DNA from: SAR202 cluster bacterium | GTDB lineage: Bacteria > Chloroflexota > Dehalococcoidia > Lucifugimonadales > UBA2985 | Length of the DNA: 64,000 bases | Reading direction: 5' to 3' | Assembly: GCA_009391535.1 (NCBI GenBank) | Contig: VFHP01000024.1 | Location: 62,001-126,000, forward strand | Shown here: positions 33,388 through 36,484 of the stretch, one piece after another | Numbering within the stretch: position 1 is the stretch's first letter | Layout of the letters: the number at the start of each line of letters is the position of its first letter | Translations under genes and position numbers: made by a program | The notes under the pieces: model-generated | What the model saw: the letters and a program-made list of their open reading frames with translations, nothing else | Told to the model about the DNA's origin: nothing | Database searches by the model: none

Positions 33388-34281
33388 ATGGAAGCTCTAA
33401 TGCCCAATGATTCAGAGACCTACTATATTTTTACCGATGGCGCCTGTAAGGGTAATCCAGGTCCTGGAGGATGGGCTGCTATAATTCGCTTTGAGGGATT
33501 AGATACCGAATTGAAAGGTTATGCTGCAGATACAACGAACAATAAGATGGAGATTACTGCAGCCATAAAAGGCTTGGAGATTTTGCCTTCCGGTGCTAGA
33601 GCTGTTGTGTGTTCCGATAGTAGTTATTTGGTTAATACTATGACAAAAGGATGGAAAAAGAATACAAACAAGGATCTGTGGGACGCACTTGACGCACTTA
33701 CATCTAAGATTGATGTAGAATGGCAATGGGTAAAGGGTCATAGTGGTCATAGTGAAAATGAGAGAGCGGACAAACTAGCTTCATTTATGGCGGAGAGTAA
33801 AGGTATGAGTAAACTTACACATATTGATGACAAAGGTGATGTGTCTATGGTGGATGTTGGATCAAAAGGACAAACAAGGCGGGAAGCAATTGCTACCGGG
33901 TCTGTTGTGATGAAACCCGATACTTTAGCATTGGTACTCGAGGGATCTATAGAAAAGGGGAGTGTTTTCTCCGTGGCAAGAATAGCTGGGATAATGGCGG
34001 CCAAAAAGACTTCAGATTTGATACCTCTTTGCCACCAATTGCCGATAGATAAAGTTCAAATAGATCTGGAGGCAGACGAACATAACAGCAGTATAATAAT
34101 TAGAGCTTCAGCTAGTACCACAGCAAAAACTGGAGTTGAAATGGAGGCTCTTACGGCAGTTTCTATCGCTGCTTTGGCGATATATGACATGTGCAAGGGT
34201 GTGGACAAATTCATGCACATAGAGGGTGTTAAGCTGCTGAAAAAAACTGGTGGTAAGAGCGGAGATATAGTAGCTTTTTAA
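33388..34281 (+). CDS. rnhA-moaC: RNase HI - cyclic pyranopterin monophosphate synthase (MoaC) fusion
   Basis: One 297-residue reading frame joins two complete, unrelated enzymes. Residues ~11-135 are RNase HI: YYIFTDGACKGNPGPGGWA (D17), NNKMEITAAIKGL (E55), VCSDSSYL (D77) and GHSGHSENERADKLA (H121, D128). Residues ~140-297 are MoaC: LTHIDDKGDVSMVDVG, K190, KTSDLIPLCHQLP (H216), KTGVEMEALTAVS (E251, E253), YDMCKGVDK (D267, K270) and KSGGKSGD-like TGGKSGD. All catalytic residues of both are kept. Met140 (33805) is preceded by GGAGAG seven bases upstream, so MoaC may also be made alone from an internal start. The second ATG at 33400 is a likely true start, with GGAAG before it. Confidence 0.93.
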   Translation: MEALMPNDSETYYIFTDGACKGNPGPGGWAAIIRFEGLDTELKGYAADTTNNKMEITAAIKGLEILPSGARAVVCSDSSYLVNTMTKGWKKNTNKDLWDALDALTSKIDVEWQWVKGHSGHSENERADKLASFMAESKGMSKLTHIDDKGDVSMVDVGSKGQTRREAIATGSVVMKPDTLALVLEGSIEKGSVFSVARIAGIMAAKKTSDLIPLCHQLPIDKVQIDLEADEHNSSIIIRASASTTAKTGVEMEALTAVSIAALAIYDMCKGVDKFMHIEGVKLLKKTGGKSGDIVAF

Positions 34282-34345: not shown

Positions 34346-34366
34346 GCACACTGTTTGGCGGGGTCC

Positions 34367-34600
34367 TTGAATAAGAGGAATTTTACGGTTGTTATCCAGT
34401 TGGTGGGGATCGGCTGGTATATAGGAATCTCCATCATGGGTGGCCTCTTTTTGGGCCTGTGGCTCGATAGAAGACTGGGTAGTATTCCTGCATTTACCAT
34501 CATTGGAGTGATAGTAGGAACTGTGTTGGCCTTCTACGGAATTTACAAAATGTTGTTGCCGTTGCTGGTTGGGATAGGTGCAACTAAACGAGACGACTAA
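34367..34600 (+). CDS. atpI: AtpI/AtpZ-like ATP synthase accessory protein
   Basis: 77 residues from TTG 34367 (an upstream in-frame TTG at 34355 lies almost at the transcription start and is less likely). Two hydrophobic helices carry the family pattern VGIGWYIGISIMGGLFLGLWLD and TIIGVIVGTVLAFYGIYKML. AtpI-type proteins help assemble the c-ring or supply ions, and lie first in many F-type operons. It is 23 bp before atpB and follows the operon promoter. Confidence 0.8.
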   Translation: MNKRNFTVVIQLVGIGWYIGISIMGGLFLGLWLDRRLGSIPAFTIIGVIVGTVLAFYGIYKMLLPLLVGIGATKRDD

Positions 34601-34623: not shown

Positions 34624-35556
34624 ATGGCCGCTATTAAGAGACCTGCAGTTTTGTTAATCTTTGTCCTTTTATTGTCTCTCGTAGTATATGGATTAATGAA
34701 TGGAGCTATAGGAACCTCTTTAACGTCCGGTGAAGGCGAAGGCACACCACTTCTTGAAGCCCCTCACCCACATATACCACCTCAGAAAATAGGATTTCCA
34801 AGTGGTAAAGGGGGGGAATCCGTAACAAGTGCTGATGGATTCGTTATAACTAATACAATTCTCTCTTCTTGGGTTGTAATGATAATACTGATTGGCTTGT
34901 TTTATATGGGCACTAGAAACATGAAAATAGTTCCCAGTGGCCTGCAGAACTTTCTGGAATTTATACTAGAATCCTTATACAATTTTGTTCAAGGAGTTGC
35001 AGGAGAGGAAAATTCAAGGAAATTTTTTCCAATAATAGCAACAATCTTCTTATTTGTTATGTTGAATGCATGGGTAGGTCTTCTTCCTATATACCCTGCG
35101 TTAGGGTTTATTGACCATGGACACATGAAGGGACACCTTCTGAGACCTGCGGGAACAGATCTGAATATGCCGTTAGCTCTTGCTCTTATATCGTTTGTAT
35201 TCGTAGAATTCTGGGGCTTAAAACTGTTGAAACTTAATTACCTAACCAAATTTGTTAGGTTAGATAACTTGAGAAAGGGTAATTTTGCTCAAGTTCCAAT
35301 AGACCTTTTTGTCGGTGTTTTGGAATTGCTAAGTGAATTCGTAAGGATAGTCAGTTTTACTTTCAGGTTGTTTGGTAATATGACGGCTGGTGAAATACTA
35401 TTACTAGTAATAACTTATCTGGTACCATTTGTTTTGGTTCTGCCTTTTTATGGACTGGAACTTTTGGTAGGATTAGTACAGGCGTTAATATTTGCAGGTC
35501 TGACATTAGTTTTCGTAGTAGTTGCGGTTACACCGCATTCAGAGGAGGAGCACTAG
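34624..35556 (+). CDS. atpB: ATP synthase F0 subunit a
   Basis: The membrane stator half-channel for protons. It is 310 residues, with an N-terminal signal-like helix and a Gly/Pro-rich loop (to about residue 65), then five helices. The essential Arg sits in VSFTFRLFGNMTAGEILLL. Other marks are FPIIATIFLFVMLNAW and the last helix LVQALIFAGLTLVFVV. The N-terminal extension is longer than in E. coli. The last codons carry a GAGGAGG SD for the next small gene. Confidence 0.95.
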   Translation: MAAIKRPAVLLIFVLLLSLVVYGLMNGAIGTSLTSGEGEGTPLLEAPHPHIPPQKIGFPSGKGGESVTSADGFVITNTILSSWVVMIILIGLFYMGTRNMKIVPSGLQNFLEFILESLYNFVQGVAGEENSRKFFPIIATIFLFVMLNAWVGLLPIYPALGFIDHGHMKGHLLRPAGTDLNMPLALALISFVFVEFWGLKLLKLNYLTKFVRLDNLRKGNFAQVPIDLFVGVLELLSEFVRIVSFTFRLFGNMTAGEILLLVITYLVPFVLVLPFYGLELLVGLVQALIFAGLTLVFVVVAVTPHSEEEH

Positions 35557-35557
35557 T

Positions 35558-35653
35558 ATGGATGCAATTCTTGTAGTATGTGCAGTAGTTTCAGTAGGTT
35601 TGTTGGCAGCTATATTGGCTGGTGTCATGGCTGTCTACTCTAAGATAGAGTGA
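35558..35653 (+). CDS. 31-residue membrane microprotein between atpB and atpE
   Basis: A complete gene too short for usual gene finders: ATG 35558, 31 codons, TGA 35651-35653. The SD GAGGAGG lies 7 bases before the ATG, inside the end of atpB, and the start is one base after the atpB stop, so translation is coupled. The peptide is one hydrophobic helix (ILVVCAVVSVGLLAAILAGVM) with an acidic start (MDA) and a tail Y-S-K-I-E. It does not resemble subunit c, b or AtpI. By position it should sit next to subunits a and c in the membrane. Function unknown; a role in assembly or stability of the a/c interface is inference. Confidence 0.78.
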   Translation: MDAILVVCAVVSVGLLAAILAGVMAVYSKIE

Positions 35654-35672: not shown

Positions 35673-35936
<264 letters not shown>

Positions 35937-35983: not shown

Positions 35984-36484
35984 ATGGAAGATCTGGGTTT
36001 TCATGTACCCAGCTTGGTTGTGTACTTGATCAACTTCACTATACTGCTCTCTCTGCTTTATGTGGTTGGCTACAAGCCTATATTACGCATGCTTGATCAA
36101 CGTGCTGAAAGTATCAAAGATAGCGTTGAAATGGTAGACAGAGTGAGAGAAGAGGCAGCCGCACAGCAGGTAGAGATGCAGCAGCAGATGGAAGAAGGGC
36201 GACAAGAGGGTCAGGCTATGTTGACCCAAGCTAGGGAAATTGCAGAAAAAATTAGAGACGAAGCTACTTCTAAGGCCAAACAGGAGGCCGATGAAATAGT
36301 GGCTAAAGCTAGGGAGTCGGTTCAGAAAGAAAGAGACGAAGCAATTGATCAGGTCAGACAGCATTTTGCTGAGATTGCGATACTTGCGGCCGAACGAGTT
36401 ATAGATAGGTCTTTAGATGGTAAAACACATAAAGATATAATCGAAAAAGTTTTGGGGGAAAGTGCCGATTTAAATCGGTCTTAG
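35984..36484 (+). CDS. atpF: ATP synthase F0 subunit b
   Basis: The peripheral stalk. It is 166 residues with one N-terminal membrane helix (LVVYLINFTILLSLLYVVGY) and a long charged coiled coil rich in Glu, Gln and Arg (VREEAAAQQVEMQQQ, then KARESVQKERDEAIDQV). A single b gene is present; no second b' was seen. It ends 7 bp before atpH. Confidence 0.93.
   Translation: MEDLGFHVPSLVVYLINFTILLSLLYVVGYKPILRMLDQRAESIKDSVEMVDRVREEAAAQQVEMQQQMEEGRQEGQAMLTQAREIAEKIRDEATSKAKQEADEIVAKARESVQKERDEAIDQVRQHFAEIAILAAERVIDRSLDGKTHKDIIEKVLGESADLNRS

Follow-up and report, generated by a model that had tools for sequence, protein, structure and literature searches.

A conserved single-helix microprotein gene between atpB and atpE, and its probable link to Fo, in one lineage of Chloroflexota ATP synthases

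CydX, a protein of 37 amino acids, forms a single hydrophobic helix in cytochrome bd oxidase and is encoded within the operon of that complex. It occurs together with one allele type of that enzyme's large subunit, and related operons encode further microproteins, CydY and CydZ (PMC4325964); CydX also tolerates much sequence change (PMC6005532). KdpF, which has 30 amino acids and one helix, is likewise reported to be co-transcribed with its complex, KdpABC, which it is supposed to stabilise (PMC3618439). Here we describe a gene for a single-helix protein of 31 amino acids that lies between atpB and atpE, which encode subunits a and c of the ATP synthase, in a stretch of 64,000 nucleotides from a SAR202 cluster bacterium (contig VFHP01000024.1, positions 62,001 to 126,000; hereafter the window), a member of the Chloroflexota with a genome of 1.36 Mb. 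This is almost certainly a genuine protein-coding gene. By analogy with CydX and KdpF, we think that it encodes an accessory Fo microprotein, either a stabilising subunit or an assembly factor, of one Chloroflexota F-type ATP synthase lineage (we give this a probability of roughly 0.6).

In the atpB-atpE gap of 30 relatives, most have a similar open reading frame (ORF) of 31-36 amino acids at the same place. One relative in the same family as the window genome is Chloroflexota bacterium isolate RHO1_bin_9 (GenBank JAPPHY010000005.1). When a profile built from 21 sequences was run on 250 genomes of the order, 42 matched it at E <= 1e-4, once per genome, and 21 of these 42 genomes were outside the set from which the profile was built. 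Every homologue that could be placed is in the atpB-atpE slot. Matches in carriers have E values from 1e-14 to 1e-5, with one very divergent copy at 0.008, while unrelated matches elsewhere in the genomes start at about 0.04. Profile scores are mostly above 26 in carriers and below 7 in non-carriers (two divergent copies, at L006 and L117, score 17.4 and 13.5), and the gap itself measures 147-365 nucleotides in carriers versus mostly 27-156 in non-carriers. One genome that is placed outside the order (G309; L037 / L070) encodes a peptide identical to that of G015 (family f12), and its microprotein-bearing contig may be misplaced or misbinned.

Among close species, purifying selection on the reading frame is strong. 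Within one genus group, there are 95, 12, and 258 differences at codon positions 1, 2, and 3, and the ratio of nonsynonymous to synonymous differences (pN/pS) is 0.14 in the frame of the ORF versus 1.33 and 11.6 when the two alternative frames are read. Close pairs give ratios of 0.05-0.26, and pooling that includes distant pairs gives 0.23. All 39 homologues examined share one frame, and their lengths vary by whole codons only. A selection test was among the checks proposed in the first-pass annotation of this DNA, which had also staked the gene beforehand on its frame being kept in related genomes. It was kept: across the order, three copies are visibly broken, against at least 39 that are intact. 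One broken copy has an in-frame TGA (L009/G051), one has a frameshift (L016/G017), and one has lost its start codon and has an in-frame stop, with the C-terminal GGKFAIYASRQD still legible (L112/G574). These may reflect decay or assembly errors.

The gene is inherited with one type of ATP synthase. A tree of 105 atpB proteins from the order has two deep clades, one of which (26 rows) lacks the microprotein throughout; the other contains 46 carriers and 33 non-carriers. Across the tree, this distribution (46 carriers, 59 non-carriers) requires just 4-5 changes, versus about 34 if presence and absence are shuffled. The simplest reading is a single gain in one ATP synthase clade and then a few losses, the largest of which is a clade of 28 rows within one family. 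The first-pass annotation had stated that other operons have nothing at this position, which holds for most other Chloroflexota that we examined, whose gaps are mostly 13-130 nucleotides, but not for the relatives of the window genome. We sampled 40 atpB-atpE regions from other classes of Chloroflexota and found nothing comparable where both genes were legible. Phylum-wide profile matches with E values of 6e-4 to 0.01 were judged to be due to chance; they fall inside open frames of 237-955 codons.

The family is undescribed in the literature and family libraries that we searched. No account of a gene between atpB and atpE turned up in searches of the literature, and neither Pfam nor NCBIfam gave a match above family cut-offs. 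In Pfam, the CydX and KdpF families were matched neither by the window protein up to E = 1 nor by three homologues up to E = 10, and a profile search of the PDB gave no matches up to E = 10. A resemblance to NCBIfam's Psb35 (E of 0.003-0.04, 13-17 bits versus a cutoff of 40) was taken as a chance similarity between transmembrane segments. We also rejected kinship to subunits c, a, and b (hhalign probabilities of 0.3%, 0.5%, and 0.1%). With homologues in the same slot, low pN/pS, inheritance across a clade, and no family match, the proposal of an undescribed, conserved membrane microprotein gene is strongly supported.

The features of the window's locus are as follows.

34355..34600, plus strand: atpZ-like gene, 5' of atpB (PF09527)
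34624..35556, plus strand: atpB, subunit a (PF00119, E = 5.7e-41)
35542..35548, plus strand: Shine-Dalgarno sequence GAGGAGG, 9 nucleotides 5' of the microprotein's ATG and overlapping the final atpB codons
35558..35653, plus strand: microprotein gene, 31 amino acids with a single transmembrane segment, MDAILVVCAVVSVGLLAAILAGVMAVYSKIE (from the ORF reading, homologues, and selection)
35706..35936, plus strand: atpE, subunit c (PF00137, E = 4.1e-18)
35984..36484, plus strand: ORF of 166 amino acids in the atpF position, read as subunit b from its sequence and the gene order

The microprotein gene runs from an ATG at 35558-35560 to a TGA at 35651-35653, and a single base separates it from the atpB stop codon (TAG, 35554-35556). 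These coordinates and the Pfam matches of its neighbours confirm that a complete gene lies between atpB and atpE and begins one base past the atpB stop, as had been annotated. The Shine-Dalgarno sequence that had been offered in support is present, and SD-like sites precede all 39 homologues, but in the window genome it is not independent evidence, because it falls on the codons for Glu residues near the end of subunit a (HSEEEH). Subunit a of the microprotein clade (window 34624-34720 and the compared loci) has an extra hydrophobic helix at its N-terminus, with a conserved GAIG motif at the end of this helix, before the usual first transmembrane segment. Farther upstream, at 33388-34281 on the plus strand, a single ORF of 297 amino acids fuses RNase HI to MoaC (PF00075 at 11-132, PF01967 at 154-289) and adjoins a moaA-like ORF. 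The two are fused likewise in a relative (L064) and are two overlapping ORFs in another (L002).

The homologues, at 31-36 amino acids, are built alike. As had been noted for the window protein, each of the 39 has one strongly hydrophobic segment (KD19 hydropathy maxima of 2.3-3.0); residue 2 is D or E in 34 of them, the short C-terminal tail contains K or R in 34, and charged residues are nearly absent in between. By the positive-inside rule, the acidic N-terminus and basic tail predict an N-out/C-in orientation. The helix includes a conserved Gly/Ala-rich stretch of small residues, GLAAAALGG(V/I)FA(I/L)Y, of the sort that is typical of close helix packing.

In Fo, subunits a and c together form the proton path. 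Position, selection, and co-inheritance point to Fo, and we favour a role there because the amino acids are under selection, the gene keeps its place between atpB and atpE, it is inherited with one atpB clade, and the predicted topology fits. The microprotein is quite likely to be associated with Fo in some way, presumably by contact. It would be made in step with subunit a by termination and reinitiation at the adjacent atpB stop, and it would insert with its acidic N-terminus outside and its basic tail inside. The Gly/Ala-rich stretch (consensus GLAAAALGG) could then pack on subunit a, the c-ring, or both, and the packed helix might stabilise Fo or aid assembly of the a/c interface, much as CydX and KdpF act in their own complexes.

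Other small proteins of ATP synthases make less close comparisons. Mitochondrial ATP8 (also A6L or subunit 8) is a small Fo subunit with a single helix, encoded next to the gene for subunit a. It has the same predicted topology as the window protein, which however has almost no extramembrane part. With no Pfam match and no match among solved structures, we do not assign it to the ATP8 family, and the two are convergent at most. AtpI and AtpZ (PF03899 and PF09527) are accessory genes of bacterial atp operons, and their products act on Fo, but these have two transmembrane segments and are encoded before atpB. Homology to them is rejected (hhalign probability of 2.9% for AtpZ; no match to PF03899 or PF09527), and so is the idea that the microprotein replaces AtpZ: an AtpZ-type gene lies upstream in all 43 tested loci with the microprotein and in all 25 without it. 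AtpTheta is not known from the atpB-atpE slot. This cyanobacterial protein is, like the window protein, small, specific to a lineage, and connected with a bacterial ATP synthase, but it is reported to be a regulator that prevents ATP hydrolysis and has a gene of its own, atpT (PMC9241938). By analogy, CydX seems to be the closest model. The window protein has the size, single helix, and operon position of the CydX- and KdpF-like functional class, and as with CydX, its presence is tied to the type of the large subunit and other microproteins occur in related operons. It differs from both in being encoded with another complex and in having no sequence or family match to them; also, binding and function have been shown for CydX, while for the window protein we infer a role.

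The proposal in the first-pass annotation of an extra Fo subunit or assembly factor stands as the best inference from position and selection, with binding to Fo itself presumed. For a permanent, stoichiometric subunit, we would put the chances slightly below even. A transient factor for the assembly or insertion of subunit a or the c-ring, something like a minimal AtpI, seems unlikely but is the most serious of the alternatives: the slot lies between two genes whose products must meet in the membrane, and the protein has proven dispensable over evolution. On the other hand, every operon tested already has an AtpZ-type gene, and a single transmembrane segment in 31 amino acids is a poor likeness of the two segments of AtpI and AtpZ.

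We consider it improbable that the microprotein merely shares the operon and acts elsewhere, such as in another membrane complex or in envelope stress. Some single-helix microproteins do work outside of their own operons, but in carriers all credible profile matches lie inside the operon, and presence tracks the atpB clade. Slightly less probable again is a regulatory leader, in which atpE owes its high translation to the ORF being translated, or to stalling there, and the encoded peptide is inert. The ORF is directly 5' of atpE, which is the gene that needs the most translation, and all copies have an SD-like site. But the amino acids, and not just the frame, are conserved along the entire helix, and the C-terminal residues vary (SRQD, SKQNQ, SKIE, TKD). 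Furthermore, atpE starts farther downstream with its own Shine-Dalgarno sequence, and in six loci the RNA between the ORF and atpE has no unusual structure (z of -0.3 to +1.4). Judged alone, the window ORF is an unremarkable case, because an ORF of 31 or more amino acids turns up in about 12% of composition-shuffled gaps and because its Shine-Dalgarno sequence sits on Glu codons, but a chance ORF without a product is refuted by conservation (the low pN/pS in close pairs, the one frame in 39 homologues, and the profile matches in unseen genomes), so that we give it almost no weight.

Several observations weigh against an accessory Fo role, or at least against a specific form of it. The gene has disappeared on several occasions, and most ATP synthases of bacteria do without it, so the enzyme can dispense with it. 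The evidence fits a permanent subunit and an assembly factor alike. An AlphaFold2 model of a read-through fusion of subunit a and the microprotein (with the intergenic stop codons read as Gln, from 31 alignment rows) has a continuous microprotein helix, but it is of low confidence and gives no usable docking or placement (mean predicted local distance difference test, pLDDT, of 65 and 55-67 in the microprotein helix; predicted template modelling score of 0.51). Finally, one lead in favour of an Fo role falls short of significance. In an exploratory scan of subunit c, 45 of 46 carriers have a non-aromatic amino acid, mostly L, as residue 8, where the inner helix starts, while 28 of the 33 non-carriers in their clade have an aromatic one. 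With four independent pairs and 76 columns scanned, this covariation is not significant (sign test, p = 0.25), and we regard it as an exploratory lead rather than a result.

A second, divergent set of one-helix microproteins, of 31-38 amino acids (for example MDFGTGLVLVIIGVSVVSAYVVAAGVISSFLSRKE), occupies the atpB-atpE slot elsewhere in the class, outside the order of the window genome (families f49, f52, f64, f72, and f87; loci L138, L144, L147, L148, L150, L154, L156, and L168). The two subfamilies agree in slot, in size, and in having adjacent atpB clades, which favours our reading, but the link between their sequences is weak (hhalign probability of 25%), which counts against it. Four of the atpB proteins from these loci group together as sister to the window clade, and three more are at the base of the next clade, although many branches have weak support. 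Because these proteins are sister to the window clade or near it, they suggest a still older origin of the slot microprotein.

The F-type ATP synthase of bacteria is usually viewed as a minimal machine of eight subunits (a, b, and c plus F1), and accessory membrane subunits are usually seen as a mitochondrial invention. We tentatively suggest, at somewhat longer odds than for a permanent subunit as such, that the microprotein is an extra subunit of Fo, present in stoichiometric amounts and packed against subunit a or located at the c-ring, that it was ancestral to one ATP synthase lineage of the class and was lost several times with compensating changes at c-subunit residue 8, and that it is a convergent counterpart of the one-helix Fo subunits of mitochondria. 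If this is true, then bacteria too add one-helix subunits to their ATP synthase, and the pairs of relatives with and without the gene would be a natural means of asking what such a helix does.
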